Origin: a virus
Direction: 5' to 3' (one strand)
DNA: 43,220 bases
Virus record (IMG/VR): IMGVR_UViG_3300017788_000053
Span: 1-43,220 of that record
Below are positions 1 through 26,472 of the stretch, one piece after another; within the stretch, counting starts at the first letter, position 1, and the number at the start of each line of letters is the position of its first letter. A program made the translations under genes and the position numbers. The notes under the pieces were generated by a model. The model made no database searches. It was not told the origin of the DNA and saw only the letters and a program-made list of their open reading frames with translations.

Positions 1-747
1 AAGGCGCCAGCCACGATCACCGCGCCGCTGGCCTACGTCGCCGGCATCGCCCTGATCAAGGACGCCACCCATGTCACCCTGGCGGCCCTGCGGAACATCG
101 ACGACAGGTGCCTGCAGTTCTCGTTCCCCTGCGCCGAGGACGCGGTCGCCAAGCGCCTGACCGACCAGGTCGCCGATCTCTTCGAGAGCCCGCTGAAGCG
201 GCGCATCTCGGGCCGCACCATGCACCTGTTCTCTCGTGATCCGAACCTGCGCCAGTGGCTGGAGCACAACGGACTGCTGGTCACCCAGGGCCCCGAGACC
301 GACCGGCTGCCCCTGGCGCTGCGGCGCTCACCGACCAACGTCATCCGCTCGCTGTTCGCCGGGATGATCGATGCGACCGCCTGCAAGATGCGCAACTCCC
401 CGCCGATGATCAAGATCCGCAGCGAGGCCCTGGCCCGCCACCTGCAGGAGGTGGGCGAGGCCGTTGGCCTGGTGTTCCGCCTGCAGCGCCACCAGGAGGG
501 CAGGAAGCCTTACTGGAAGCTGAGCCTCTCGCGCTACTGGAGCACCGCCGCTGCCCTGGAGTACCTCAAGCTCGACAGCCTCCACTGCCAGGGGCGCGAC
601 ATGCGCCAAAGCCGTAACTGCTTCGGGCAGAACTACTGGAAGGTGACCGCCATCGAGCGGCTGGACGACACGGTCACCGCCGACATCTCCCTGGAGGCTC
701 CCGACGAGGAGGCTTGGTACTGGACCGGCGCCATCAAGAGTCACAAC
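1..747 (+). other. Intein (C-terminal part) within the ribonucleotide reductase
   Basis: The C-terminal splice junction is visible as I-K-S-H-N followed by Ser: His-Asn ends the intein (codons 742-747) and Ser at 748 is the +1 nucleophile. Upstream is a DOD-type homing endonuclease region with two LAGLIDADG-like helices, around 34-66 (YVAGIALIKDA) and 352-381 (LFAGMIDATA). The usual catalytic acid of each motif looks replaced (Lys in the first, Thr in the second), so DNA cleavage may be lost while splicing residues remain. The N-terminal splice block is outside the window. The insertion site, next to the conserved SLL..SPG segment of the reductase, is at a conserved core motif, as is usual for inteins. 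Confidence 0.85.
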
Positions 748-1431
748 AGCAAGTCCCTGCTGACCAACGCCTCCCCGGGCTGGCACCCGCCCAAGTCCCC
801 CTACTACATCCGCCGGATCACCTTCGCCAAGGAGGACCCGATCGCCCTGGCTTGCATGGCCTACGGCTACCCGGTGGTGCCCTCCCAGTCCGACAAGGAC
901 GGGGACGGCAAGCTGCTGAACGATCCCTTCGATCCGCGCTGCACCGAGTGGCTGGTGGAGATCCCTACCGCCACCCCCTGGGCCACCCTCGAGGGGGCCG
1001 ATGCGATCGATCCCGGCAAGTTCTCCGCCCTGGCCCAGTTCGACTTCTACATGAACGTGCAAAAGCACTACGCCGGCCACAACACTTCCGCCACTCTGGA
1101 GCTCACCGAGGCCGAGATCGAGCCGCTGGCGAACGCCATCCAAGCCGCCATCGACACCGACCAGGGCTACATCTCCGCGGCTCTGCTGGCCCGCTTCGAG
1201 GACAAGGAGACCTACCCGCGGCTGCCATTCGAGCCGATCAGCAAGGAGCGCTACGAAGAGCTCTGCGCGCAGGTCCAGGAACGCCGCACCAGTGACTGCT
1301 TCTTCGAGGCCCTGGCCCGCTTCGACGCCGAGGCGGCCGGTGGTTCCCTGGAGCCCCAGGGCCCGGCCGGCTGCGATGGAGCGAAATGCCTCATGCCAGA
1401 GGTCCGTCCAGGCATGCCGGGACGGGCATGA
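1..1431 (+). CDS. nrdJ: Class II (adenosylcobalamin-dependent) ribonucleotide reductase, 3' part, intein-interrupted
   Basis: The frame is open from base 1 to the TGA at 1429-1431, so the 5' end lies outside the window. Codons 1-249 are intein; the host protein resumes at Ser (748) and runs about 227 residues. The extein reads like the end of monomeric RTPR-type reductases: an SPGWHPP..YYIRR stretch, an NTSATLELTEAEIEPL segment, LPFEPI..E.YEEL, and a C-terminal C-D-G-A-K-C. That CX4C pair is the swinging-arm dithiol known in Lactobacillus RTPR. The family reduces ribonucleoside triphosphates to dNTPs using B12 and no oxygen, and is common in cyanobacteria and their phages. The family assignment is strong. 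The active-site loop and cysteines are upstream and not visible. The stop overlaps the next start (ATGA), so the two genes are probably co-transcribed and translationally coupled. Confidence 0.88.
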   Translation, partial: KAPATITAPLAYVAGIALIKDATHVTLAALRNIDDRCLQFSFPCAEDAVAKRLTDQVADLFESPLKRRISGRTMHLFSRDPNLRQWLEHNGLLVTQGPETDRLPLALRRSPTNVIRSLFAGMIDATACKMRNSPPMIKIRSEALARHLQEVGEAVGLVFRLQRHQEGRKPYWKLSLSRYWSTAAALEYLKLDSLHCQGRDMRQSRNCFGQNYWKVTAIERLDDTVTADISLEAPDEEAWYWTGAIKSHNSKSLLTNASPGWHPPKSPYYIRRITFAKEDPIALACMAYGYPVVPSQSDKDGDGKLLNDPFDPRCTEWLVEIPTATPWATLEGADAIDPGKFSALAQFDFYMNVQKHYAGHNTSATLELTEAEIEPLANAIQAAIDTDQGYISAALLARFEDKETYPRLPFEPISKERYEELCAQVQERRTSDCFFEALARFDAEAAGGSLEPQGPAGCDGAKCLMPEVRPGMPGRA

Positions 1432-8011: not shown

Positions 8012-8819
8012 GGACAACCGGGCGGCACGTCTTGCATACTACTGGAACCAGCTTGCGACACCTTTGGCTGACGCTGAACGCCCCACGCACCCCACGCACC
8101 CCACGCACCCCACACTCGCCGAGATCCAGGACCAGGCCCAGGAGGCGCTGGAGCGGGGTCGCAGCAAGGTTGCAGCCGAAGCCCTCCGCCGCGGCGAGCA
8201 GGTGCACCGGGAGATGGAGATTGCGCTGGGCAAGCAACTCACGCTGGCGGAGATGCTCAGCAGGTATGAGGACGCCGTACCCTTCCGGTGGCACCCAGCC
8301 ACTGGGAGGCTCGTTTTCCTGACCCAGGGGCAGCACTGGCAGCCGGGCAGGTGCGAGCCCCCGGGCTGGGTGCCCAAGGTGCTGTCCGACGCCTGGTACG
8401 CCGAGGGGGCTGAGGTGGCTCCCTTGGCGAGTGATGGGGCCATTGACTGGCTCTTCGATGAACCCGAAGGCGAGTGCCGCAAGAGCGCCGAATCGGCCAC
8501 CAAGCCCCGCCTGGAGCTGGTTCCCTATGAGTGCGTCGAGGAGATCGCCGAGGTGCTCACCTTCGGGGCCGCGAAGTACGAGGCCAACAACTGGGCCCGC
8601 GGCGCCAGATGGGGTCGCTACTTCGCAGCTCTGCTGCGGCATGCCTTCGCCTGGTGGCGCGGCGAGGACAGGGACCCGGAGACCGGCTTCAGCCACCTGG
8701 CCCACGCCGGCTGCTGCCTGTTCTTCCTGATGGCCTATCAGCGTCACGGCTGGGGCAAAGACGACCGCTTCCTCAGCCCTGACAACAAGCCCTTCACCAA
8801 GCACGATGGAGCACGCTGA
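8010..8819 (+). CDS. MazZ-like dATP/dGTP diphosphohydrolase domain protein
   Basis: About 269 residues. The last ~100 match the PF18909-type dATP/dGTP diphosphohydrolase family: KPRLELVPYECVEEIAEVLTF, GAAKYEANNW, then LLRHAFAWWRGED, DPETGFSHLAHA and LFFLMAY. The acidic residues and the H..HLAHA helices look intact for Mg-dependent pyrophosphohydrolysis of purine dNTPs. The first 160 residues are not recognised and include a PTHPTHPTHPT repeat. The family includes MazZ of 2-aminoadenine phages, but it also occurs in phages with normal DNA, and no purZ or datZ is in this window. It probably trims the dNTP pool alongside the RNR. The start could be GTG 8004 or further downstream. Confidence 0.75.
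   Translation: MDNRAARLAYYWNQLATPLADAERPTHPTHPTHPTLAEIQDQAQEALERGRSKVAAEALRRGEQVHREMEIALGKQLTLAEMLSRYEDAVPFRWHPATGRLVFLTQGQHWQPGRCEPPGWVPKVLSDAWYAEGAEVAPLASDGAIDWLFDEPEGECRKSAESATKPRLELVPYECVEEIAEVLTFGAAKYEANNWARGARWGRYFAALLRHAFAWWRGEDRDPETGFSHLAHAGCCLFFLMAYQRHGWGKDDRFLSPDNKPFTKHDGAR
8081..8114 (+). repeat. 9-bp coding tandem repeat (Pro-Thr-His)
   Basis: Nearly four copies of CCCACGCAC in tandem, encoding repeated P-T-H. The unit length keeps the frame, so copy number could vary without breaking the gene. It lies in the poorly conserved N-terminal part of the MazZ-like protein. Confidence 0.8.
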
Positions 8820-9048
8820 CATGCAGCTCGACAGCGAGCGGATTGCCGACTTCAAGGCCGCCCAAGGCCTGGTCAACCCTCCCACCCCCGAAGAGGCCGA
8901 GCTCAAGGCCATCTGCACCTTTCACGAAGAGCGCCTCAACTGGCGCCTGCAGCGCGCCTTCGAGGACTGCTTCCCAGGGCGCGCCTTCCAGCAGCCGCGT
9001 CCTGTGCGTTCACGGCCCGTCGCCATCAGGCCGCAGGGGTTCGCATGA
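8806..9048 (+). CDS. Hypothetical phage protein, 80 aa
   Basis: The ATG at 8806 overlaps the preceding gene by 14 nt; ATG 8821 just after the stop is an alternative. The protein is charged, with a helical stretch (AELKAICTFHEERLNWRLQRAFEDCF) and a basic Pro/Arg-rich tail. No family recognised. Its stop overlaps the next ATG, so it lies in a coupled run with the nucleotide hydrolase and may be a small accessory protein. Confidence 0.55.
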   Translation: MEHADMQLDSERIADFKAAQGLVNPPTPEEAELKAICTFHEERLNWRLQRAFEDCFPGRAFQQPRPVRSRPVAIRPQGFA

Positions 9049-9242
9049 TCGACACCCTCTGCACCGGCACCACTCATCCCACCTGCCAGGCCTGCGCCCG
9101 CAAAACCTGGCCCGCTTGCAGGTTGCTCGATGAGGGCGGCCGGGAGCAGTGGATCAGCCACGCCAACCCACCGATCAACCTGAGCACCGGCCACTGCCCG
9201 GAGTTCAGAGCGGGGCGGGGAACGGCAGCACCGGCGGAGTGA
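9045..9242 (+). CDS. Cys-rich small protein, possible zinc ribbon
   Basis: 65 residues, coupled to the previous gene (ATGA at 9045). Cysteines at C-T-G-T-T-H-P-T-C-Q-A-C, then CR and HCPEF near the C-terminus, could bind one zinc ion. No family assigned. It is the last gene before a 187-nt gap between convergent units. Confidence 0.5.
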   Translation: MIDTLCTGTTHPTCQACARKTWPACRLLDEGGREQWISHANPPINLSTGHCPEFRAGRGTAAPAE

Positions 9243-9429
9243 ACGGCAAGACCAAGTCGCAAGGTTTCAAGTGATCACTCGGGGTCGAACCCCATGGCCA
9301 GTGCGAAGCGACCGCTGCCCGGCCTTTGCGCTGCGCCCTGACGCCCTTCGCCCCGGCCGTAAGCGAGCTCGCCTGATCAGTTGGCTGGGGAAAGTCTGCA
9401 GGCCTAGCGGCCGGGCAGAATCTCCGCCT
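9243..9429. other. Intergenic gap between convergent units
   Basis: 187 nt between the stop of a plus-strand gene and the stop of the LamG fibre gene. I see short hairpin possibilities (for example GGGG-TCGAA-CCCC near 9281-9293) but no U-tract terminator and no supported gene. Both flanking transcripts must end here or read into each other. Confidence 0.6.
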
Positions 9430-10629
9430 CTATAGCCCCGGGAACTTCGCCGCAGGTGGAGTGAAGTTTTCGGTGTAGCGACCGATGCCCCGGGTAACTC
9501 GAACTTCGTCGAGGTAACCATTAAAGTGATTACCAAACATGCTGCCCCAACGCGACAGATCGAAAGAGCCAATCCAGGATGTGTTGGCAGCGCCAATCTG
9601 GACTCCGTTGACAAACATCCTGGTGGTGTTTGCAACCCTACTGATTGCCAGGTGCATCCACGCATTGGTAATGATCCCTGCGGCCGTAGGGCTGAACACA
9701 TACAACCCATTAAGGTAAAACGACAGAGTGCCTGGTCCGCTTTCGTTCAGGCGAAAGACCTGGACGTTTTGGGTTGCACTGCCTCCGATAATCTGATCGG
9801 CTGTTGACCGGGAGTAGACCTGAGCTTCAACAGTGAAGTCCATGCTCGCCGGTATCACCAGTTGCGGCGCGCTCGGCATCGTCAGCAAGCCGCCGGATCC
9901 GTCGAAGAAGGCGCTGGAGTCGCTGAATACGCCCCGATCAGTGCTGATCCGAGTATTTCCAGTCCTGGAGACACTCCTTCCGTAGACGCTGCTGTCGGTG
10001 AACGTCAGACTGCCATCGGCTCCGTCCAGGTGCAGCAACAGGGTGACGCTACCGAAGTAGGGGTCTTCGGTCAGGACTGCCGCTTCGGCGGCAGTCGCGG
10101 GGTTGCAGCCGAACTCGGTCAGCGCAATCCAGCTGTTGGCAGGATCTACGACCCTGACAAATCTCCCAGTGAAAACAGTGGGCAGCGTGTAGATTCCGTC
10201 TGCCGAAAATGTATCCGTATAGAACGCATTAAACCAGTTCGTCCCGTCAATGGAATAAGAGATGAACCTTTCTTCTGTGTACGCCCTACTCCAGCCCCCC
10301 GGGATACTTGGAGTACCCGTTCCGATGATGGTCGAGCCAACGGCGAATGGCGCCCCGAGGTCAAGCATGAAGAACTGACCGTCCCCGCTACTCGTCGCAG
10401 CGCCTGTGTTGGTGGCGATGCCATCCGTCATCAGGGCATTGCTGATTGGCGTCGTACCAGGATAAACCGAGGACTGGGAATAAACGACGCTTGAGGGACT
10501 GGGGAACAGTTTCGGCCAGGCGTCTGCCCCTTGCGCAAGGGATTGCTCGCTTGGTAGCCACAAACCCGCAGCTCCGGCCGTTGACGGTGTCCTGCGCACC
10601 CCAATCAGGCCTCCGTTGAATCCCAACAT
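9430..10629 (-). CDS. LamG-domain fibre / adhesin protein
   Basis: 399 residues, last gene of the MCP-led minus-strand unit. The N-terminal part (to about 190) has an F5/8 type C-like jelly-roll look: MLDLGAPFAVG, FISYSIDGTNWF, RFVRVVD. Residues about 200-395 are a LamG/concanavalin-like lectin domain: LLLHLDGADG, DSSVYGRSV, FTVEAQVYS, AWMHLAISRV, RMFVNGVQIG, and a final YLDEVRVTRGIGRY motif. Such domains bind surface sugars, so a host-adhesion role is likely. The base composition is visibly less GC-rich than the neighbours, as often found for receptor-binding genes exchanged between phages. The start overlaps the upstream stop by one base. Confidence 0.82.
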   Translation of the reverse strand: MLGFNGGLIGVRRTPSTAGAAGLWLPSEQSLAQGADAWPKLFPSPSSVVYSQSSVYPGTTPISNALMTDGIATNTGAATSSGDGQFFMLDLGAPFAVGSTIIGTGTPSIPGGWSRAYTEERFISYSIDGTNWFNAFYTDTFSADGIYTLPTVFTGRFVRVVDPANSWIALTEFGCNPATAAEAAVLTEDPYFGSVTLLLHLDGADGSLTFTDSSVYGRSVSRTGNTRISTDRGVFSDSSAFFDGSGGLLTMPSAPQLVIPASMDFTVEAQVYSRSTADQIIGGSATQNVQVFRLNESGPGTLSFYLNGLYVFSPTAAGIITNAWMHLAISRVANTTRMFVNGVQIGAANTSWIGSFDLSRWGSMFGNHFNGYLDEVRVTRGIGRYTENFTPPAAKFPGL

Positions 10630-15234: not shown

Positions 15235-15675
15235 TCAACCCACGAAGAACTGATCCTCGGCGAAGACCTCGTCCCAGTTGACGCGCTCGATGCCACGCAG
15301 TTGATCGAGGCTCTTGAAGCGCTCGCCGGGGAGCGAGCTGCGCAGCTCGACGATCTTCTTGGCGGTGGCGTAGCCGATGCCCTTGAGGGCCACCAGCTGC
15401 AGGGGGGTGACGGCGTTGAGATTCATCCGTGTTTCCGGCGGGATGTTGGAGACCGGCGCGGATTCTTCGGCCTCCTGGGCCGCCGTGCGCTGCGGCTGGG
15501 GGCCGTCGGTGCTGGCGCCGGCGCCGGGCTCGAAGAACACCAGCTGGCTCAGCTGGGGGTAGTAGACCTGGCCGTCGTTGCGCCGGACCATGGCGAAGTC
15601 GACGTCGTGGTGGCTGATGAACTCGACCACCTGGCCGGTCTTGGTGTCCTTGACGAGGGTCATGACGGCAGACAT
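15235..15675 (-). CDS. Helix-hairpin-helix (ComEA-like) protein with N-terminal module shared with a second phage gene
   Basis: 146 residues. Residues about 83-146 form a ComEA/HhH-type fold: MNLNAVTPLQLVALKGIG, ATAKKIVELR, FKSLDQLRGIERV, typical of sequence-nonspecific DNA binding through the GIG hairpin. The first ~50 residues (VKDTKTGQVVEFISHHDVDF, QVYYPQLSQLVFFEP) closely parallel the N-terminus of the plus-strand gene at 27270. That points to a shared small docking module joined to different partners. It sits just after a hairpin terminator, so it may be expressed from partial read-through. A role in DNA handling inside the capsid is plausible but inferred. Confidence 0.72.
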   Translation of the reverse strand: MSAVMTLVKDTKTGQVVEFISHHDVDFAMVRRNDGQVYYPQLSQLVFFEPGAGASTDGPQPQRTAAQEAEESAPVSNIPPETRMNLNAVTPLQLVALKGIGYATAKKIVELRSSLPGERFKSLDQLRGIERVNWDEVFAEDQFFVG

Positions 15676-16419: not shown

Positions 16420-17568
16420 TCAGTAGGCGAAGGAGTAGGCCACCGTGACAAAATCACGGTTCAGCAGCTCGAAGCCACCGAAAAGACTCCACACCATAAT
16501 AATAAAGCGCCCAAAGTCGTCGTCATTGCTGAGAAGAATCTGGGCATCTTTACCGCCGATGCCAACACCAACCGACTGCGGCCCGAAGAACAGTAGCGGC
16601 GCCGAGGGGGTCACCGCGTTGGTGATGCTGGCGCTGGTGATGGTCACCTGCAGGCTCTTGGCCGCCAGATTGGTGGACTCGAACCAGCGGACACCCTCGA
16701 ACAGGAAGCCGGTGGGAGCGGTGTGCTGGCCGTTGATCGAGCCGGCCTGGCCGTAGGCGGGCCCCATGCCCAGAAAGTTGTGGGCGTTGGGGTGCATCGC
16801 CGGGTTCATCGGATCAATCATCCCGTTGCCCGGGTAGCGGGCAATTTCACGGAAGTCCGGGTCCTGGCGCAGGTGCATGCCCGCGGTGGGGGCGTAGATG
16901 CAGCGGTAGAAGCCGCCATCAAAGCGCGGCACATTTCGCTCACCCATGTCCTTGACAACGGGCAGCAGATCGTTCTTCACCGAGAACTTGCCGGTGTCGG
17001 CGCCGGTGCCGGCGTAGGTGAGGAAGGGCGCACTGCCGGCGCGGACCTTGGCCCCGGGGTAGTAATAGCCACCGCGAGTGGAAGAGGCGGGTCCGTTGGA
17101 TTCGGCCTTGAACAGTTCGTCGGAGAAGACCCGGTCCTTCCAGCGCCGGTAGTCGTCGAGCATCGTCATCGAACCGATGCTCTGGTGGAACATCTGGATG
17201 TTCCCGTAATCGAGCAGCAGGCGCTGACCGGTGAGCAGCGTTTCGCGGCTCACCTTGAAGGTCGAAGGGGCCGAAGGATCGATCGGGTCGGCAGGGCCGG
17301 TGTACTCCTTGAGCGACACCAGCACCTTGTCCTTGACGATATTCCGAGAGGACGCCGTGCCAAGAGTCTGGTCGGCGGTGCGCTCACGGGAATCCTTGGT
17401 TCCGGGGTTCCCCCAGAAGCGGTACCGGTCCAGTTGCACCGTCTGGCCGGGCGATTTGCCCCAGTCCCACACCACCAGGGGCGCGGAAACCGTCTCGACG
17501 ATATAGCTGGGGTGGGGGCGGTGAAGCTCAACCCCGAGCAGCTTGGGAAAGTCGTTGTCGATCCACAT
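16420..17568 (-). CDS. Probable major capsid protein
   Basis: 382 residues, first gene of the minus-strand structural unit, with a gene-proximal GGGAG upstream of the ATG. The pattern resembles N4gp56-like capsid proteins: a helix with RLLLDYGNIQMFHQS, DDYRRWKDRVF, GFYRCIYAPTAGMHLRQ, FLFEGVRWFES, then LLFFGPQSVGVGIGGKD and a C-terminal IIMVWSLFGGFELLN with a final strand. The length and the short two-gene operon closed by a terminator fit an abundant capsid protein. No other gene in the window is a better MCP candidate. MCP lies about 15 kb from portal and terminase and on a separate transcript. Confidence 0.75.
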   Translation of the reverse strand: MWIDNDFPKLLGVELHRPHPSYIVETVSAPLVVWDWGKSPGQTVQLDRYRFWGNPGTKDSRERTADQTLGTASSRNIVKDKVLVSLKEYTGPADPIDPSAPSTFKVSRETLLTGQRLLLDYGNIQMFHQSIGSMTMLDDYRRWKDRVFSDELFKAESNGPASSTRGGYYYPGAKVRAGSAPFLTYAGTGADTGKFSVKNDLLPVVKDMGERNVPRFDGGFYRCIYAPTAGMHLRQDPDFREIARYPGNGMIDPMNPAMHPNAHNFLGMGPAYGQAGSINGQHTAPTGFLFEGVRWFESTNLAAKSLQVTITSASITNAVTPSAPLLFFGPQSVGVGIGGKDAQILLSNDDDFGRFIIMVWSLFGGFELLNRDFVTVAYSFAY

Positions 17569-17606
17569 GGTCGGGGTGTCTCCCGTGTCGCATGACGTGT
17601 CTTACT

Positions 17607-17613
17607 GTAGGAC
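17607..17613 (+). promoter_or_regulatory. Candidate promoter element in the divergent MCP / fibre-operon gap
   Basis: GTAGGAC lies 22 nt before the ATG at 17636 on the plus strand. On the minus strand TACAGT at 17604-17609 lies 35 nt before the MCP ATG at 17568. The 67-nt gap is the only space for promoters driving both structural transcripts. Confidence 0.35.
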
Positions 17614-17635
17614 TCGTGAATCGGGAAAACTCTGA

Positions 17636-18454
17636 ATGACGCCAGACCAGGCTCGCGGCCTGTCCTCCGTGCTTGTCTCCAGTGGCAGCTTTCACCTCCT
17701 GCGCCGTCCCACGGCCAGTTACATCGAGATCGTCTGGAGCGGCCCCCAGGCCCAGGCCGCCTATTTCCACGAGAAGGTCGAAGAAATCCAGCGGTTTTTC
17801 CCGACATCCGCCCGCATCACCCAGACCCGCGCCCGCCTCAGGCAGAAGTACGCGGTGCCGCCGGCCCTGCGCTTCAAGATCACCAGCGACCGCCTGCGCC
17901 CCCTCTACAACCTCTTCGTGCCCCGCGGCGAGCGCCGCATCTCCTCGGCCTGCCTGGAGCTCTGCGGCGCCCGGGCCATCGCCTGGCTGTTCAGCGACCA
18001 CGGCCGCCGCACGCCCCGCGGCTTCGAGCTCCGCGGCGTCGCCCGCAGCGCCGAAGAAGCCGTCCTGCTGGCCCAGTGGATGCAGACCATCCTGGGCATC
18101 TCCTGCCGGGCCCGCCTGCGCAGCCGGCGCCTGGCCCTGCTGCTCGATCCGGCCAACGCCGCCAAGGCGGCCGAGCAACTCCTCGACTACAGCCCGATCA
18201 CCCGCCGGCACCTTTTCCTGCAGCTCCTCAATGACCGCGATCCCGTTTGCGACCCGCGTGATCTGCTACTGCCTGGGGCGCCGCGGCAGCCTCGAACTGC
18301 GGGGGCAGCGCTCCCGCCTCTGGCTGATGCTGCGCCGCTCCGAGCTGGAGAGGACCTACCTGGACCACCAGGTGCGGACTTTGCGGCGCCTGCACCCCCA
18401 CCCCAATACCCTCAAGGTCCGCTGGAACCGGCTGGAGAGCGATGCGGTCTATGA
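17636..18454 (+). CDS. LAGLIDADG-like protein 1, active site degenerate, with out-of-frame tail
   Basis: The frame is open for 272 codons, but the recognisable protein ends near residue 198 (about 18230), exactly where the next gene starts. Residues 12-55 and 88-195 follow the LAGLIDADG_2 homing-endonuclease pattern: a first motif (VLVSSGSFHLL), a Y-FHEKVEEIQRFF helix, LYNLFVPRGERRIS, AIAWLFSDHG as second motif, then an EEAVLLAQWMQTILGI helix. The G-D-G of the first motif reads S-S-G, so the usual catalytic Asp is missing; the second reads S-D-H-G. The last ~75 codons overlap the next gene in another frame and are Pro/Ala-rich, so they may be untranslated or a frameshift artefact. First gene of the plus-strand fibre operon. 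Confidence 0.65.
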   Translation: MTPDQARGLSSVLVSSGSFHLLRRPTASYIEIVWSGPQAQAAYFHEKVEEIQRFFPTSARITQTRARLRQKYAVPPALRFKITSDRLRPLYNLFVPRGERRISSACLELCGARAIAWLFSDHGRRTPRGFELRGVARSAEEAVLLAQWMQTILGISCRARLRSRRLALLLDPANAAKAAEQLLDYSPITRRHLFLQLLNDRDPVCDPRDLLLPGAPRQPRTAGAALPPLADAAPLRAGEDLPGPPGADFAAPAPPPQYPQGPLEPAGERCGL

Positions 18455-18851
18455 CGACCTGACCGCCGAGTTCACATGCCCGGAGCTCTGGGGCGCCTAC
18501 AGCCTGCTCTACCCCCGTGACCAGCGCCGGATCACCATGGCAGCCCTGGAGGCCGCGGGGCTCCCCGGCCTGGCGGCCGCCTGGCTCGATGAAGGGGTGC
18601 GCGCCCCCGAAAGCGCCCGCCTGCGCCTGCATGGACCCGCCCCCAGTCACGCTGAACTGCTTGGCTGGCTGGAGGGCCTGGGGACTCCCGGGCGCATCGC
18701 CGCCGGCTCGCGCCGCCAGGGCGTCTTCGCCTGGGACCAGTGGGAGACCGACACCCTGGTCCATCGCATCCGGCCCCTGGTGCACCGCAGCATGGCCTAC
18801 CGGTTGCGGCCCCAGGCCCCAGGTTCCCGCACCTTCTACGCTGGGCTGTGA
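18231..18851 (+). CDS. LAGLIDADG-like protein 2, paralogue of the preceding gene
   Basis: 206 residues from the ATG at 18231. It follows the same plan as its neighbour: YCLGRRGSLEL (first motif, Asp replaced by Arg), a YLDHQVRTLRRLHP helix parallel to YFHEKVEEIQRFFP of gene 1, LWGAYSLLYPRDQRRIT, GLAAAWLDEG (second motif, acid kept), an AELLGWLEGLG helix, and the family-typical ending IRPLVHRSMAYRL. With one of two acids lost, cleavage by a monomer is doubtful, and DNA binding without cutting is likely. Its TGA overlaps a GTG start of the large fibre gene. It could be a domesticated homing endonuclease that acts as regulator or structural DNA binder. Confidence 0.72.
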   Translation: MTAIPFATRVICYCLGRRGSLELRGQRSRLWLMLRRSELERTYLDHQVRTLRRLHPHPNTLKVRWNRLESDAVYDDLTAEFTCPELWGAYSLLYPRDQRRITMAALEAAGLPGLAAAWLDEGVRAPESARLRLHGPAPSHAELLGWLEGLGTPGRIAAGSRRQGVFAWDQWETDTLVHRIRPLVHRSMAYRLRPQAPGSRTFYAGL

Positions 18852-21097
18852 CGCCGCCCGCGCCGCCGATGGCCCAGCAGGGGGCGGGCCGGCCCTGGCG
18901 GGATCTGGGCCCGCTGACCACCCAGTTCAGCGTCCACGCGGGCGTGATCGGCGAGAGCGCCGGCGCCGCCACCCTGCTGCTGCTCTTTTACCTGCCCCGG
19001 CCGGCCAGCGTTTTCCTGCGCCTGCTGCCGCAGCAACCATTCACTGACCGCTTCATCGAGGCGGCCCTGCAGTCCGCCAACGGCGATCGCTTCCCCCTGG
19101 CCGACGACGGTCGGGCGGTCTTCGTCGATGCCGCCAACACCGCCGCCGACGAGTCCCGCCGGCGCCTCCCGCCCGGCACCTACCGCGTCGTCATCACCAC
19201 CAGCCAGTGGCAGGAAGCGCCTTTTGCTCTGGAGTTGCACACGTTCGCGCTTGAGGCCCCGCGCCTGGCTCTGGCTGGCCGTGGGCACCTGGGGCGTCGG
19301 CTGTCCGTCCTGCGCCCCGAGGCCTTCCTGGCCGGCCGGGGCGGTCTGCAGGCCTCGCTGCAGCCTTCCGCCTCCCTGGTCTGCCGGCTGGTCGGCGTCG
19401 GCGGCCACCGGGCCGGCCTGCAGAGCATTCCCTCCTACGAAGCGCCACCGCCGGTCGGCCTGGGCCATGTCTGGTTCAGCCGTCGCACCGGCCCCGACGG
19501 CCGCCTGCGCCTGGGCGCCGCCACCGGCCTGAGTTGGGTCGCCCTGCCCCTGAGCGACACCCTGCCCGGCTACATTCCCACCGACCTGGCCCTGCCGGAC
19601 TTCCGCGCCAATCCCGGCCGGCGGGTCATCTTCTCCGAGCGTGCCTTCGACATCTACGGGGCCTACCCCGAGCTGGGCGTCCTGCAGTCCGTCCTCCGTG
19701 CCCAGGTCTCCCCGGACACCCCCGGGGTGCCCTACCTGGACCTGACCAACGGCCTTTACCGCCGCGAGGTGCTGCTACCCCTGCCGATCGAAGGGGCTCG
19801 CTGCCTGGTGCTGCACCTGGAGGAGGTGCTGGCCTGGAACAACGACGTTATCCGCGACCTCGACGACAGCCTGCCGCTCTCCCCCCGGCTGGTGGTGCGC
19901 AATCTGCGGCGCTCCTGGTTCCATCGCCGGCGCATCAGTGCCTTCGTCACCGACGGCCTGCTGATCCGCCGCCTGCAGGCCGTCCCTTCCGCCCTGCTCG
20001 TCCAGATCGAGCGGGCCCTGCCGCCGCTGGAGCAGCAGTTGGTGGAGCGCGGCATCCGGGTGCCGGGCCCGGCGCTCGCTCTGCCGCCCCTGCAGATCCT
20101 GTTTCCGACCTTCATCGCCGAGCGTCGGCCGCCGGCGCCGGCCGATGTGGTCTTCGGGGCCGAGCCGGCCGAGCGCTCCGCCGGCCTGCTGCTCAGCTAC
20201 GGCATGACCCGCCTGCTGGCTGCCGACGCCTCCATGGGCTCGGCCGCGGCCTACACCACCCTGGCCGACTTCCCGGCGATCGCGGCCAAGGCCGACTACG
20301 ACCCCAAGGCCACCGGCTTTGTCGTTGCCAACCTGCCCGACCGCCCCGACGGACTGCCGGTGCTGAGCCCCTGGCTGCAAGATGGGGCCTACCGGCTCAA
20401 TGGCACTGCCGCAGCCGCGTTCGTCTCCCAGGGCGAGCAGCTGCTGCGCTACGGCCGCTGGAATGGCCCCTTGCCGGCTCGTACCGACACCGCCGTCAGC
20501 GCGGCTGACCCCCGCTGGCTATTGGCGGTCCAGGGCCTGGCCCTGCCGGCCGACCGCCTGTTCCGCGCCGACAGCCCTGGCGTCCTGCTGGCCTACGACT
20601 GGAATAACGGCACCTACTGCCGCCAGCGGCTGCAGCTGCTGGGCTTTAGCGAGGAGGACCTCTCCACCGCCCCGCCCACCAAGCGCCCCACTGGCAGCCT
20701 CAATCCAGGTATCCCCCGTCCACTGGCCGGCCGGGGCAGCCTGGCCCTGGGGGTGCTCTTTGCCCAGCAGACCCGCCGGTTGCGCATGAGCCTGCGGGGG
20801 CGAGGCGGGCTGCAGGCCAACGCCGCCTGGGGCCCTCGCGGCCGCCTGCGCGGCAGGGGAAGCCTGAGCATGGTCCTCGACACCGATCCCGATCTGACCC
20901 GGGTGCGGCGCCTGCTGCTGGTTCGCATGGCCAGCCGCGCCAGCCTGCAGCGCAGCCAGCTCAACATCCCCGCCAGCCGGCTCACGGGCCGCGGATCCCT
21001 GGGGCGCCCCTGGCTCAACGCCCGTCCGCCGAACGAGTTCCCCTTGGTCTACGCCACCGGCCATGGCCGGCTGATCGCCGCCTTGAGTGCCACCTGA
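18848..21097 (+). CDS. Large fibre/appendage protein with G-x-G-x-L repeats, 749 aa
   Basis: The start is the GTG at 18848 overlapping the previous stop (GTGA); ATG 18869 is an alternative. The N-terminal ~150 residues form a jelly-roll-like module (LPPGTYRVVITTSQWQEAPF) that matches the next gene's N-terminus. Two repeat blocks follow: LAGRGHLGRRL, LAGRGGLQASL near the first third, and LAGRGSLALGVL, LRGRGGLQANA, LRGRGSLSMVL, LTGRGSLGRPWL at the C-terminus. The centre (IYGAYPELGVLQSVLRAQVS, YLDLTNGLYRREVLLPL) is not recognised. Shared modules with the 1,627-residue neighbour and with the SWIM protein argue for a common appendage. No catalytic motif. Confidence 0.7.
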   Translation: MTPPAPPMAQQGAGRPWRDLGPLTTQFSVHAGVIGESAGAATLLLLFYLPRPASVFLRLLPQQPFTDRFIEAALQSANGDRFPLADDGRAVFVDAANTAADESRRRLPPGTYRVVITTSQWQEAPFALELHTFALEAPRLALAGRGHLGRRLSVLRPEAFLAGRGGLQASLQPSASLVCRLVGVGGHRAGLQSIPSYEAPPPVGLGHVWFSRRTGPDGRLRLGAATGLSWVALPLSDTLPGYIPTDLALPDFRANPGRRVIFSERAFDIYGAYPELGVLQSVLRAQVSPDTPGVPYLDLTNGLYRREVLLPLPIEGARCLVLHLEEVLAWNNDVIRDLDDSLPLSPRLVVRNLRRSWFHRRRISAFVTDGLLIRRLQAVPSALLVQIERALPPLEQQLVERGIRVPGPALALPPLQILFPTFIAERRPPAPADVVFGAEPAERSAGLLLSYGMTRLLAADASMGSAAAYTTLADFPAIAAKADYDPKATGFVVANLPDRPDGLPVLSPWLQDGAYRLNGTAAAAFVSQGEQLLRYGRWNGPLPARTDTAVSAADPRWLLAVQGLALPADRLFRADSPGVLLAYDWNNGTYCRQRLQLLGFSEEDLSTAPPTKRPTGSLNPGIPRPLAGRGSLALGVLFAQQTRRLRMSLRGRGGLQANAAWGPRGRLRGRGSLSMVLDTDPDLTRVRRLLLVRMASRASLQRSQLNIPASRLTGRGSLGRPWLNARPPNEFPLVYATGHGRLIAALSAT

Positions 21098-21112: not shown

Positions 21113-24100
21113 GTGGCGCTGCCAGAATGGCCCGATCGCCCAGGCGCACAGGGGACCATGTCGATCCAGCCGGCGGGCGGTGCCCCCTCGTTCAACCGGC
21201 CTGAGTTCGTCCGCTTCGATTCGCTGCGCGACAGCAAGGACCTCGGGGCGATCACCGACATCAAGGCCCACCTGTCCGGCTTCATCGGCGCCGAAGCCGG
21301 CACCCAGTCCCTGTTCTTTTCCTTCGAGTTACTGGTCCCTGGCGCCATCCAGGTCCAGACCGTCACCGGCAACAAGTGGACCCAGCGCTTCGTCTCCGTC
21401 GGCCTGCGCTCGGAGACCGGCAGCATCGGCCTGGACGAGCGAGGCAACGCCCGCGGCGTCGACATTGTCAACACGATCAGCCCCGACGAGTCGCTGATCC
21501 CCTTCCCTCCCGGGAAGTACGCCGTCGTCGTCTCTTGCTCCCAGTGGCAGGCGACCCCGTTCGGACTGACCCTGCGGGTCAGTCCCACCACCCGGTTGCA
21601 GGTTGCCCTGATCGGCCGTGGCGGCCTGGGCATGGGTCGCTCGCGTCTGCGGGTCGCCGTCGCCAAACTTGAAGGCAACCTCACCGGCTTGGGGCAGCTG
21701 CGGGCCCCAGGCTCGGGCCTGTTCGCCGGCCGACGCGACAGGCCCCTGGGCAGCGGCTTTCTTACCGGCCGCGGCGGACTCACCGGCACTCCCTCGATCC
21801 GCGAGCCCCTGCGCAGCCTGGCTGGCGGCTTCCTTGTTGGCCGCGGCGGCTTCGGGGCTTCGACCCTGATCTCCAACGCCCTGGGCCCCCGCATGTGGGT
21901 GTCCCGGCTGGCGACGCCGACCGAGGTCTCCTCCGGGGCTCCTGAGCCCCGGAGCAGCATCTGCCTGACGCCGAGCAATTACACGTACCACACGTTCTAC
22001 TTCCTGCCGGCTGGGGCACCTTCTTCCCAGCGACTACTGGCCATCGTCTTTCGCTCCCCGTCGGGCCAGGTGCTCTGGAGCCGCCTGTCCCACATCTTCG
22101 TCGACCCCGGCGACACCGGCGGCTGGCAGTGCGCCGGGCTGCCGAACTCCGAGGACATGGTGATGTTCCGAAACCACTTCCTGATCCCCTTTGTGGGAGA
22201 GGGCAACAACAACCCACGAGGCCTCTACGTCATCCGGGTCCGCTCCGATGGGACCATCGCCTGGAAGCGCAACATTCAGGCTGACTTCTTCGTTCAGTCC
22301 AACACCTTCAGCAATGACATCGGCAGCTGCGTCGATGTCACCTACCACCCCGGCCGTGACCGGCTGATCTTCACCTGCCAGCAAGGAGCCTTCGAGCATT
22401 GCTATATCTCTGTCAACCCCAGCAACGGCAATGTCATCAGCATTCGCGGACTGGCCGGTGGCACGCTGAACTCTGGTTTGAGCCTTAACTCTTTTGTCAG
22501 ACGCAACGGCCCCCGAATCAGGCCTGATGGCCGCCTGATCCTCTCTGGCGCCAAGTTCAACGCCGCGCCCGGTTACACCTGGGTCGTTGAATGCGACTCG
22601 GACTTTCTGTCGCCTTCGCTGCTCCACAAGTACACCGACGGCAGCGGCACCGCCTTTGGGGGGCCGATCGCCCTCCACGGCGACGGCTCGATCACCCTCA
22701 CCGGAGATGGCGAGCAGGGCTGGCTGCGACTGAACGCGGACTTCACGTTACGGGAGCGGATGGCCAGAACCCAATTCGATCAGAACACCAGCAACTTGTC
22801 CTTGGTCGTCGATGCCGATGACACCATCCACATCGGTGGCGGCTTCGTGACCTCCTCCTCCTATATCAACTCCAGGGATTACGAGGGCAACATTTCCTAT
22901 CGGCACGTCATTGCCCACGGCGTCCCGGGTCGCACGGACCAGAACTCCACCCGCCGGCCAGGGCCCTGGTTCAAGGTCGAGGACAACTGGGTGGTCTTTG
23001 CCACTTCGGCCGTCGGCGTCAGCCCTGGCCTAGGCGTCCTTTGCGTCGGTCATGAGCTGGACATGGCACCCACGACCGTCTCCGGCGGCGGCTATGCAAT
23101 CACTGCTGGTGTCGACGAACGCATTGCCAACGCCTGGGATGTCGACCCGCCCGTGCTGGCCCTGAACTTTGACGTTCTCCTGGCAGGAGTCGAGCCGATC
23201 TCATTTCGCAGCCCGGAAGCCACGGCGACCACCGACGCGCCCTCCTGGGATCCGATCTTCCTCGACGCCAGCCTGGCGCTCACCTTCGAATACGGGTCCA
23301 GCCCCGTGCGCCGCGGCGTCACCAGCGGCTTCCCCCGCTTCCGCAGCAAGCCCGTCCCGGTCCAAGAGCCTGACTCGCTGCGCTCTTTCGTCAGCCTGCA
23401 CTTGCCGGGATCCGGATACCCGGACACTCCATTCTTCGTTGATTACTCCGCCTTCTCTCATCAGGCGATCCCCCTGGGCAACGTCAAGTACTCCATCGCC
23501 CAGGCCCGCTTTCCGGACATCGGTGGTTTCTTCGAGCGCACCTCCATCGCCTTCGATGGCGTGGAGGACGCCATCGCCTATGAGCCCTCGCCCGGTTTCC
23601 GCTTCGGCCGCGAATCCTTCACGATCGAGGCCTGGATCTACCGGCTACCGACAGGGAATACGCGCACGCTGTTCAGCAACAGCCGGACGATTGACGCTTC
23701 TGCCCACCCCAACAGTTTTCGCCTGGACGTCAACTCGGGCGGTGCCCTGCTGTTGTGGGTCAACAACGGCTACCGCAATGCCAGCCCGTTCGCCACCGAC
23801 AACCCAGTGCCCCTCTCGGTCCGCTCCCGCGTTGTTCCGGCCAACGCCTGGACCCACGTCGCTCTCTCCAGGGAGGATCAGATCTGGCGCCTCTATATCA
23901 ACGGCCAGGTCGATCCCTACGGCTGGCGCTTCGATCTGGATCTGACCGCCGGCGCACTGCTCATCGGACGGGGCCCGGGCGAGCCTCCGAACGTCCCATC
24001 ACCCTTCGCCGGCTTCATGGCCGACATCCGCGTCACCCGCGGCGTCGCCCGCTACCACCGCAACTTCCAGCCCCGCAACGCCCCGATCCAGTACACCCCT

Positions 24101-25996
24101 TTCGGCCCGCCGCTGAGCCTACCGGCCGGCAACGAGCCCGCCGAGTCAGGTCCGGCGACGACCGATCTGCGCTTCAACAACCTGCTGCTGTTCGCCCGGA
24201 TGAACGGCAACGACAACGTCTTTCGCGACAGCGGCCCCTACGACCATTTGATCATCCCCTTCGGCAACGTCACCCAGATCCCCGGCGGCAAGTGGGGCGG
24301 AAGCCAGGCCACCTTCGACGCCTTCGGCGACTGGATGGAGGTGCCTTCCAGCCCGTCACTGGCCCTGGGGACTGGCGACTTCACGGTCACCCTCTGGGCC
24401 ACCCGCACCGGAGAGGGGCGGGACCCCGAGTTCTTTCAGGCCCTGCTCGACGCCCGCACCGCTGAGCCTGAATCCCAGTTCTGCCTGCGCGTCAACCGCG
24501 TTGCCACCGGCCGCCAGCTCTGCCTCTACGTCGGCGGCGCCATCCGGATCCTGGGTGAGCCGACGGTCGCCGGCGTCCGCTACCACATCGCCGTCGTGCG
24601 CCGCTCGGGGGTCACCACCCTCTACATGAACGGCAGCCCGGTGGGCTCCCCCTGGACCGATGTCACCAATTACACCGCCACGAATTGGACCATCGGCCGG
24701 GCACGGCTCGCCGATGGCGCCGACCAGTGGTACTTTCAGGGCCGCCTCAATGATGTACGCATCGAGCGCGGCGCTGTCTACGACGGCGCCTTTACTCCGC
24801 CGGTCGCTCCCTTCGGCAGTCCGCCCTCGGCCATCGCCCGCTATTGGCGTCTGGTGGACCTGCGCCCCTACCTGGGCTTTTCCGGTGCTTTCTCCCTCTC
24901 GCAGATCGCCCTACACCAGGGCCGCAACCGCCTGCCCGGGATCACCGTCACCAGCTTGCCGCTTCCCAGTTCCGGCCTGCTCACCAACACCCAGGACCTC
25001 AGTACCACGCTCAACTGCAGCTGGGATCGGCCGAGCATGGAGCAGATCGGCAGCTGGATCCAGCTCGACGCCGGCGAGCCCGTCACTGCCGACGGCCTAC
25101 GCCTGGCCACGGCCGGGCAGACCAGCGGTGGCGTCTCCGGCCTCACCCTGCAGTACTCGGGTGACGCCGCCAACTGGACCACCCTGGGCCACGTCGCTGA
25201 CATCCCCACCAGCGAGTCGGCCCTGGGCCCTCGGCTAGGCTTCATGTCGCTCCCCGGGCCGCCGGCGGACTTCAGCGACCCAGATTTCGATCGGGTCGTG
25301 CTCTTCATTCGCGGCAACGAGCCCGGTTCCACCGTGCTCGACAGCAGCCCCCGGGCCCTGGCCGTTGACAGCGTCAACGTCTCCAAAAGTACGATCGAGA
25401 GCACCCAGGGCGGCCAGAGCCTGCTGTTCAGCGCCGGCAGCAATGCCTACCTCACCCTGGGCTCCACCGGCGGCGACACGCAGCGCCGCTCGGTGTTCTT
25501 CTCTTTCGGGACCGGCGCCCTGACGATCGAGATGGACGTGTTTCCGCTGGCCGTGCCGCCGGTGAACGCGGTCCTCTACTCCACCAATCCGATCGGCGGA
25601 GCGGCTTCCTACCCCGACGGCTTCCTGTGGGTGCTCACCAGCCAGCTGAAGCTGGACCTGTTCATCAACGGCGCCTTCCGCGGCGTCTCCCTGACCAGCG
25701 TGCAGCTGGGGCGCTGGAACCGCCTGCGCCTTAGCCGTGACGCCATCGGTGTCTGGCGCTACACCATCAACGGCGTGGTCGATGGCACCACCTTCACCAA
25801 CGCGGTCGACATCTCGAGCCGCGCTTTCACGATCGGGCGCGACGGCGCCAACACCAACACGCCCTGGTTCTACAACGGCTACATGGACGAGATCCGGATC
25901 ACCCGCGGGGTGACCCGGGACAACGTCATCACGATCACCAACCTCAACTGGACCGGCCTGGGGCAAGGTCGCCTGGTAGGCGCCCTGGCTACTTGA
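21113..25996 (+). CDS. Giant fibre protein with three LamG domains and an F5/8-like domain
   Basis: 1,627 residues from GTG 21113; ATG 21158 is an alternative. Order: N-terminal jelly-roll module like that of the preceding gene (FPPGKYAVVVSCSQWQATPF); G-x-G-x-L repeats (LIGRGGLGMG, LTGLGQL, LTGRGGLTG, LVGRGGFGAS) to about residue 260; a WD/propeller-like region about 280-700 (GLYVIRVRSDGTIAWKR); LamG 1 about 752-992 ending ADIRVTRGVARYHRNF; LamG 2 about 1021-1233; an F5/8 type C-like domain about 1241-1380; LamG 3 about 1392-1610 ending MDEIRITRGVTRD; and a final G-x-G-x-L-like end. LamG and F5/8 domains bind carbohydrate. This is the best candidate for the main host-recognition fibre. A short TGCCAGAATG word lies just past the start region and also before the next gene. 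Confidence 0.85.
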   Translation: MALPEWPDRPGAQGTMSIQPAGGAPSFNRPEFVRFDSLRDSKDLGAITDIKAHLSGFIGAEAGTQSLFFSFELLVPGAIQVQTVTGNKWTQRFVSVGLRSETGSIGLDERGNARGVDIVNTISPDESLIPFPPGKYAVVVSCSQWQATPFGLTLRVSPTTRLQVALIGRGGLGMGRSRLRVAVAKLEGNLTGLGQLRAPGSGLFAGRRDRPLGSGFLTGRGGLTGTPSIREPLRSLAGGFLVGRGGFGASTLISNALGPRMWVSRLATPTEVSSGAPEPRSSICLTPSNYTYHTFYFLPAGAPSSQRLLAIVFRSPSGQVLWSRLSHIFVDPGDTGGWQCAGLPNSEDMVMFRNHFLIPFVGEGNNNPRGLYVIRVRSDGTIAWKRNIQADFFVQSNTFSNDIGSCVDVTYHPGRDRLIFTCQQGAFEHCYISVNPSNGNVISIRGLAGGTLNSGLSLNSFVRRNGPRIRPDGRLILSGAKFNAAPGYTWVVECDSDFLSPSLLHKYTDGSGTAFGGPIALHGDGSITLTGDGEQGWLRLNADFTLRERMARTQFDQNTSNLSLVVDADDTIHIGGGFVTSSSYINSRDYEGNISYRHVIAHGVPGRTDQNSTRRPGPWFKVEDNWVVFATSAVGVSPGLGVLCVGHELDMAPTTVSGGGYAITAGVDERIANAWDVDPPVLALNFDVLLAGVEPISFRSPEATATTDAPSWDPIFLDASLALTFEYGSSPVRRGVTSGFPRFRSKPVPVQEPDSLRSFVSLHLPGSGYPDTPFFVDYSAFSHQAIPLGNVKYSIAQARFPDIGGFFERTSIAFDGVEDAIAYEPSPGFRFGRESFTIEAWIYRLPTGNTRTLFSNSRTIDASAHPNSFRLDVNSGGALLLWVNNGYRNASPFATDNPVPLSVRSRVVPANAWTHVALSREDQIWRLYINGQVDPYGWRFDLDLTAGALLIGRGPGEPPNVPSPFAGFMADIRVTRGVARYHRNFQPRNAPIQYTPFGPPLSLPAGNEPAESGPATTDLRFNNLLLFARMNGNDNVFRDSGPYDHLIIPFGNVTQIPGGKWGGSQATFDAFGDWMEVPSSPSLALGTGDFTVTLWATRTGEGRDPEFFQALLDARTAEPESQFCLRVNRVATGRQLCLYVGGAIRILGEPTVAGVRYHIAVVRRSGVTTLYMNGSPVGSPWTDVTNYTATNWTIGRARLADGADQWYFQGRLNDVRIERGAVYDGAFTPPVAPFGSPPSAIARYWRLVDLRPYLGFSGAFSLSQIALHQGRNRLPGITVTSLPLPSSGLLTNTQDLSTTLNCSWDRPSMEQIGSWIQLDAGEPVTADGLRLATAGQTSGGVSGLTLQYSGDAANWTTLGHVADIPTSESALGPRLGFMSLPGPPADFSDPDFDRVVLFIRGNEPGSTVLDSSPRALAVDSVNVSKSTIESTQGGQSLLFSAGSNAYLTLGSTGGDTQRRSVFFSFGTGALTIEMDVFPLAVPPVNAVLYSTNPIGGAASYPDGFLWVLTSQLKLDLFINGAFRGVSLTSVQLGRWNRLRLSRDAIGVWRYTINGVVDGTTFTNAVDISSRAFTIGRDGANTNTPWFYNGYMDEIRITRGVTRDNVITITNLNWTGLGQGRLVGALAT

Positions 25997-26049
25997 TCCA
26001 GGCTGTCTCATCTATCTGCCAGAATGAGAGAGAAGGCTCTCGCGGATCC

Positions 26050-26472
26050 ATGCCGTTCTCTCAGTACCTGGCCACGCAGATCCTGAACTGGGTGCGCGGC
26101 ACGACCATGCCGGAGGCCCCCACCGGCCTTTTCGTCACCATCCACAGCGCCAGCCCGGGCGGCGACGGATCGGCCGCCAACATCACCCCCACGGTGACCG
26201 GCAACAGCAACCGCATCCAGCTGCCCCAGGCCGACCTGGCCGCCGTGACCCCGGTGGGCGGCGGCGGCTTCGAGCGGCTCAACGCCCAGACCGTGATCAT
26301 CACCAACAGCGCCGTCAACGGCTCGAGCGCTTTCGCCAGCCACGCCGCCCTCTGGGACGCCAACGCCGGCGGCAACCTTCTCTTCCAGGACGCACTTAGC
26401 GTCGTCACCGAAATCCAATTCGGAGATCTTGTAAAGTTCGATCCGTCGACTCTCTCAGTCCGCTGCATCTAG
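26050..26472 (+). CDS. Small tail/fibre protein, MPFSQYLATQILNW family
   Basis: 140 residues from the ATG at 26050, chosen because the family starts with M-x-F-S-x-Y-L-x-x-x-I-L. The pattern PEAPTGLFVTIHSASPGGDG, NRIQLP, ITNSAVNGSSAFASHAALWDA, LLFQDAL matches a widespread phage tail-fibre-linked family of beta-rich proteins with a Gly-rich centre. It ends in TLSVRCI. A second copy of that ending, with synonymous changes, stands after the HNH gene (27184-27208), which suggests the HNH gene was inserted at its 3' end. Confidence 0.78.
   Translation: MPFSQYLATQILNWVRGTTMPEAPTGLFVTIHSASPGGDGSAANITPTVTGNSNRIQLPQADLAAVTPVGGGGFERLNAQTVIITNSAVNGSSAFASHAALWDANAGGNLLFQDALSVVTEIQFGDLVKFDPSTLSVRCI

Follow-up and report, generated by a model that had tools for sequence, protein, structure and literature searches.

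The genes of homing endonucleases are usually regarded as selfish elements that are gained and lost again, and in the LAGLIDADG family the loss of one of the two catalytic acids abolishes double-strand cleavage. Members of the I-SceI/LAGLIDADG_2 (PF03161) group carry two such motifs in a single chain. The LAGLIDADG fold is also found in a domesticated, non-homing protein, WhiA (DUF199), a LAGLIDADG domain that has turned into a transcription factor (PMC3781837). CapR, the capsid-operon repressor of the satellite PLE, is descended from the portion of a phage homing endonuclease that binds DNA (PMC10448857), and gp210 of phage PhiPA3 is a homing endonuclease that is kept for its benefit to the carrier phage (PMC11620839).

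We examined a pair of tandem genes, referred to here as g1 and g2, in the genome of an uncultured phage (virus record IMGVR_UViG_3300017788_000053), the 43,220 bases of which are called ‘the window’ below. The two genes overlap by 224 nt in different frames. The MCP gene and g1 diverge across a gap of 67 bp, and fibre-type genes lie downstream of the pair (Table 1); the position between MCP and the fibre genes is the one given by the first-pass annotation of the locus. A Pfam search with the gene directly 3' of g2 returned no match. The only match to the window MCP among 50,697 phage records was a reading frame of Synechococcus phage S-EIVl (60% identity over 99%), so the host is probably, though not certainly, a cyanobacterium and the phage a cyanophage. 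In S-EIVl itself (L114, KJ410740.1 60784-62010) this MCP-like frame is continuous (tblastn 60859-61986, + strand), and its annotation shows two hypothetical genes, of which one runs on the opposite strand. Elsewhere in the window, positions 220-1431 (+ strand) resemble a ribonucleotide reductase PHROG (phrog_367, E 6.5e-36), and positions 15235-15675 (− strand) encode a helix-hairpin-helix protein (PF12836) within the head-gene cluster that is kept in S-EIVl and in loci lacking the pair.

Table 1. Features of the g1–g2 locus in the window and, in the last four lines, of LAGLIDADG_2 proteins encoded inside MCP gaps of related loci.
Feature	Coordinates	Strand	Description
MCP gene	16420..17568	-	PHROG 1357 major head protein, E 3e-12; no intron; divergent from g1
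Leader element	17603..17629	+	TAnnnTA-N11-TCGGG, directly upstream of g1
g1 (LAGLIDADG_2 protein)	17636..18454	+	272 aa; residues 1-200 form the conserved domain, residues beyond ~204 a disordered tail
g1 motif-1 acid position	17681..17683	+	Ser16 in place of Asp; V-S-S16-G
g1 motif-2 acid position	17996..17998	+	Asp121, acid kept
g2 (LAGLIDADG_2-like protein)	18231..18851	+	206 aa counted from ATG conserved in relatives
g2 motif-1 acid position	18282..18284	+	Arg18; G-R-R18-G
g2 motif-2 acid	18588..18590	+	Asp120, aligned with catalytic Glu of g1
Gene directly 3' of g2	18854..21097	+	Resembles genes after the pair in relatives
Large fibre-type gene	21113..25996	+	Laminin_G_3 lectin domains, PF13385 E 7e-35
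Fibre gene	25993-26472		Pfam Gp80 fibre match
LAGLIDADG_2 protein in MCP gap, L036	8362-9222	-	
LAGLIDADG_2 protein in MCP gap, L073	2177-2905	-	
LAGLIDADG_2 protein in MCP gap, L085	5191-5982	-	
LAGLIDADG_2 protein in MCP gap, L050	within 8629-9596	-	

The products of g1 and g2 are homologous I-SceI-type LAGLIDADG_2 proteins and paralogues of each other. The window g1 matches Pfam family PF03161 at 30.1 bits (cut-off 25, E 5.7e-7), and the same family is matched at E 0.1 or better by all 62 aligned g1 rows and by 40 of the 61 rows of the g2 family; the window g2 alone gave no Pfam match above cut-off. Comparison of the g1 profile with the g2 profile (hhalign) aligned 188 columns with a probability of 99 and an E value of 4.5e-18. 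AlphaFold2 (AF2) models of the two proteins (pLDDT ~90 over residues 1-200 of g1 and 90.5 overall for g2) were matched to known folds with Foldseek and VIA-align. The best solved match in both cases was I-SceI (1r7m), with a Z score of 18.7 and an rmsd of 2.7 Å over 188 aligned residues for g1, and a Z score of 16.3 and an rmsd of 3.3 Å over 183 residues for g2; I-WcaI stood alongside it among the best solved matches. The first-pass annotation had assigned both proteins to LAGLIDADG_2 by eye, had noted that they share one plan, and had proposed structure prediction as a check; family search, profile comparison and fold all agree with it. Both proteins are basic (pI 11.1 for the g1 core and 10.3 for g2), and DNA binding would fit this charge as well as the fold.

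Searches of PHROGs and NCBIfam yielded no family for either protein, a sequence search of the PDB no credible relative, and tblastn of the phage record collection with g1 and g2 at E 1 returned nothing. In a tree that also included intron-encoded relatives, g1 formed one clade and g2 another (support 99 each); the tree is unrooted with long branches, and is compatible with duplication of a single gene or with two homing genes.

Profile searches of viral contigs recovered 132 relatives of g1, from which the best 80 loci were taken, with further loci reached by way of g2; homologues of g1 are present in more than 70 viral loci. Every complete g1-selected locus drawn from those best 80 of 132 contains both genes, overlapping, in the same place and order and divergent from MCP, which is far more than chance would produce and which answers the suggestion, made with the first-pass annotation, that the pair be sought beside MCP in related phages. 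Fibre-type genes follow the pair in most g1-selected loci that reach that far. The genome collection that we searched yielded only four MAG contigs with g1 relatives (L273-L276); the MAGs are named Euryarchaeota and Phycisphaerae, and the contigs are probably of phage origin and were binned there.

A search with MCP, the hits of which were ordered by similarity to the window, yielded loci that have the pair as well as loci that do not, and provided a tree of 106 rows (72 bearing the pair and 34 lacking it; S-EIVl belongs to the 34). On this tree there is a single change in presence of the pair, where shuffling of the labels would lead one to expect ~29 (none of 500 shuffles gave so few), and no loss is seen; the branch that parts the two groups has a support of only 72%. 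Distances tell the same story, with Mantel r values of 0.90 between MCP and g1, 0.66 between MCP and g2 and 0.77 between g1 and g2 (0 of 999 permutations in each case). A sporadic, horizontally spread distribution of the kind associated with homing is not what the single change and the MCP–g1 correlation describe. MCP shares a strand with the head genes and comes after them in S-EIVl and in those pair-less loci that were examined, whereas pair-bearing loci have a + strand block, comprising the pair and fibre-type genes, between the head genes and MCP. A sister lineage that lacks the pair, with an MCP 65–70% identical, is common in the same collection; S-EIVl gave no match to the g1 profile in a search run without a positive control. 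The pair is passed down with its genome and is fixed beside MCP in one large S-EIV1-like phage lineage. In fold over the whole domain, two-motif single-chain layout and Pfam profile g1 and g2 are like I-SceI and its LAGLIDADG_2 relatives; unlike them, the window proteins lack the first catalytic acid, and the genes stand in tandem outside any intron or intein and descend vertically.

The first-pass annotation described the active sites as damaged, with the acid of the first motif missing from both proteins (S-S-G in g1 and R-R-G in g2). The first acid is indeed gone from both, but the second, which the annotation missed, is kept (Table 1): the g1–g2 profile alignment (hhalign) places D121 of g1 and D120 of g2 on the glutamate of the other g1 proteins, with only the next glycine displaced by one, so each window protein is without the first acid and with the second. 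Among the 62 aligned g1 proteins, the 6 unique rows of the clade to which the window belongs have S or T at position 16 and D at position 121, and the 56 others all have D at position 16 and E at position 121. The corresponding first-motif position of g2 is basic, K or R, in 42 of 61 rows and D in a single row, and position 120 is D in 59 of 61. An active LAGLIDADG homing endonuclease has one acid per motif, an arrangement that is absent from the window g1 and g2 and present, at the level of sequence, in the 56 other g1 proteins. The picture of a doubly dead pair consequently holds for the window's clade and does not extend to the family.

Absence of the first acid from g1 appears, from these alignments, to be a derived state confined to that small clade. 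Across the family at large g1 is probably still a working nuclease and g2 its non-cutting partner, and since D16 and E121 are invariant in the other 56 g1 proteins, a nuclease with a non-cutting paralogue looks like the ancestral form of the pair. In the window clade, where g1 has also lost its first acid, the pair should bind specific DNA and make no double-strand cuts, an expectation that we hold with some assurance.

The invariant acids bear on the main rival to our reading. Under this alternative the pair serves interference or marker exclusion, with g1 cutting a putative target in the capsid region of co-infecting relatives that lack the pair and g2 binding and shielding the phage's own site; the window clade would then carry a disarmed cutter. 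It would explain why both acids are invariant in 56 of 56 g1 proteins outside the window clade, despite vertical inheritance, better than transcriptional control does, and it suits both the adjacency of the pair to MCP and the abundance of the pair-less sister lineage. The intron-encoded gp210 of PhiPA3, which confers a competitive advantage, offers a precedent (PMC11620839); it resembles the pair as a homing endonuclease retained to the carrier's benefit, and differs from it as an active HNH enzyme encoded by a single gene within an intron. The protective role given to g2 is, however, guesswork, and the selection that acts on both genes within the window clade is left unexplained. We judge this alternative unlikely on balance.

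That selection was estimated from the window and L009, both of which lie inside the clade that lost the acid. The resulting dN/dS values are 0.06-0.18 for g1, ~0.11 for g2 and ~0.05 for MCP, with dS high or saturated and with methods that disagree two- to threefold; other comparisons, made by a cruder method and also at high dS, gave ~0.16-0.5 for g1 and 0.3-0.7 for g2. Both genes are under purifying selection, g2 being less constrained, and because of where the window and L009 lie, this constraint persists after loss of the acid. Along with vertical descent with MCP and the single change in presence, it upholds the earlier proposal that the proteins are domesticated. We consider it improbable that g1 and g2 are instead decaying homing endonuclease genes of the ordinary selfish, free-standing sort. 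Phages typically have homing genes next to essential ones (PMC10448857) and loss of an acid resembles decay, but such genes would not be expected to show one presence change without losses, distances that track those of MCP, purifying selection once the acid had gone, and g1 and g2 always kept together.

The product of g2 is most likely a separate protein, because it has its own ATG, conserved in nearly all relatives and in many of them accompanied by an AGGAG-type ribosome site; no obvious site of this type precedes g2 in the window clade. A programmed frameshift fusing g1 to g2, the frames of which overlap by ~95-224 nt, was rejected in view of the ATG and the AGGAG-type sites and also of four distant loci in which the overlap is of a few bases and in another frame. 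The aligned start codon of g1 is TTG in 69 of 86 loci (for example L042 9986).

A short leader element directly upstream of g1 (Table 1) has one match in the window, where 0.04 would be expected by chance. Its general form is TAnnnTA-N11-T(A/C)G(G/T)G; the spacer is exactly 11 long in 71 of 86 loci (9-13 being permitted), and each locus has the strict form a single time, at g1. The element is a candidate −10 element plus ribosome site, or may be an operator. Many relatives have a short inverted repeat of varying sequence in the middle of the MCP–g1 gap (for example L036, L053, L085 and L108), which hints that a hairpin is conserved and not a sequence for binding; RNAalifold, applied to a MAFFT alignment, found no pairs, and the registers of the stems differ.

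The likeliest use of the pair in the window clade, which we advance tentatively, would be control of the divergent capsid and g1–fibre transcription, with binding setting its level or timing, possibly by way of the element at 17603-17629. That the LAGLIDADG fold can serve in a transcription factor follows from the presence of WhiA among the fold neighbors (Z 13.2 for g1, against 8dy7, WhiA in its RNA polymerase complex; Z 10.4 for g2). WhiA and the pair differ in that WhiA has a separate helix-turn-helix domain, there is one pair of paralogues here, and the nuclease acids survive in the sister clades; searches with g1 and g2 gave no WhiA or HTH family above cut-off (HTH_30 reached 11.9 bits on g2, cut-off 27). 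CapR is likewise the descendant of a homing gene at a capsid locus, with the regulatory action of g1 and g2 being proposed only; in contrast to them, it derives from T5orf172 homing genes, is encoded by a satellite and is aimed at the phage. Regulation is disfavored by the invariant acids of the sister clades, which point to selection on cutting, by the missing WhiA-like helix-turn-helix domain, and by the leader, which may be a mere promoter and ribosome site.

The head-gene surroundings, the basic charge of both proteins and their overlapping translation would also suit a virion or packaging protein, whether one bound to the phage DNA inside the head or one that works on concatemers as they are packaged. 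Neither protein matches a structural or packaging family, however, and relatives including S-EIVl do without the pair, so we regard such a role as very improbable.

The MCP reading frame is in pieces in 18 of 85 g1-selected loci, at about eight sites (up to four gaps in the single gene of L036), and is uninterrupted in the other 67. Rfam searches for group I introns (RF00028) gave 15 matches above cut-off in 8 of 10 tested loci (L020, L034, L036, L050, L063, L065, L071 and L073) and none in L057 and L085, where the gaps are inferred from exon spacing and, in L085, accompanied by a LAGLIDADG_2 gene inside the gap. Among loci drawn by an internal MCP segment, gaps occur in 6 of 18 with the pair and 0 of 43 without it (Fisher p 3e-4), a count of loci and not of independent events, since several of the six are near-copies. 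The LAGLIDADG_2 enzymes encoded within the MCP introns of L036, L050, L073 and L085 share Pfam family and locus with g1 and g2, and their profile scores to each are similar to the g1–g2 score; they differ in lying inside group I introns, in possessing the motif-1 acid and in branching separately from both g1 and g2. The L050 protein has LDQG at motif 2, with D-x-G spacing as in g2.

These introns raise the question of whether g1 and g2 are maturases that help to splice group I introns, the ones in MCP in particular. The restriction of MCP introns to pair-bearing loci, at several sites and with Rfam support, agrees with this reading, as does the appearance of the bI3 LAGLIDADG maturase among the fold matches. 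Yet MCP is uninterrupted in most pair-bearing loci, and the window has neither an intron in MCP nor any Rfam group I intron match; some introns have a LAGLIDADG_2 gene of their own, the six intron loci include near-copies, and a maturase needs no invariant metal-binding acids. We therefore give a maturase function little credence. That MCP introns were found in the pair-bearing lineage alone was unexpected, and it connects the number of introns carried with a domesticated homing protein in a way that can be tested.

We favor, with a probability of roughly 0.5, the reading that g1 and g2 are a domesticated I-SceI-type LAGLIDADG_2 pair, fixed at the capsid locus and inherited with MCP, the window-clade form of which binds DNA and does not cut it. 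In most of the lineage g1 would have both metal-binding acids and probably still be a nuclease, and g2 would be a paralogue that does not cut, translated from an overlapping frame of the same mRNA; in the window clade g1 would have lost its first acid as well. A fuller statement, that a nuclease and its non-cutting paralogue, encoded by overlapping genes and fixed in a widespread lineage, act either against related phages or as a regulator of the capsid locus, with a cut-free, solely DNA-binding form in the window clade, is possible, and we put it forward with less than even confidence. We found no published account of such a pair in the literature searched, which was mainly open-access and is thus weak evidence of novelty.

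Selection retains the pair, which descends together with the capsid gene, so that a selfish DNA cutter has apparently turned into a permanent component of a large and common phage group. The pair is inherited like a core gene across phages that are abundant and almost unstudied, and one of their clades shows a step from probable cutting to probable binding under continued selection. The lineage would thereby offer a natural series in which to follow the conversion of a selfish nuclease into a beneficial DNA-binding protein.
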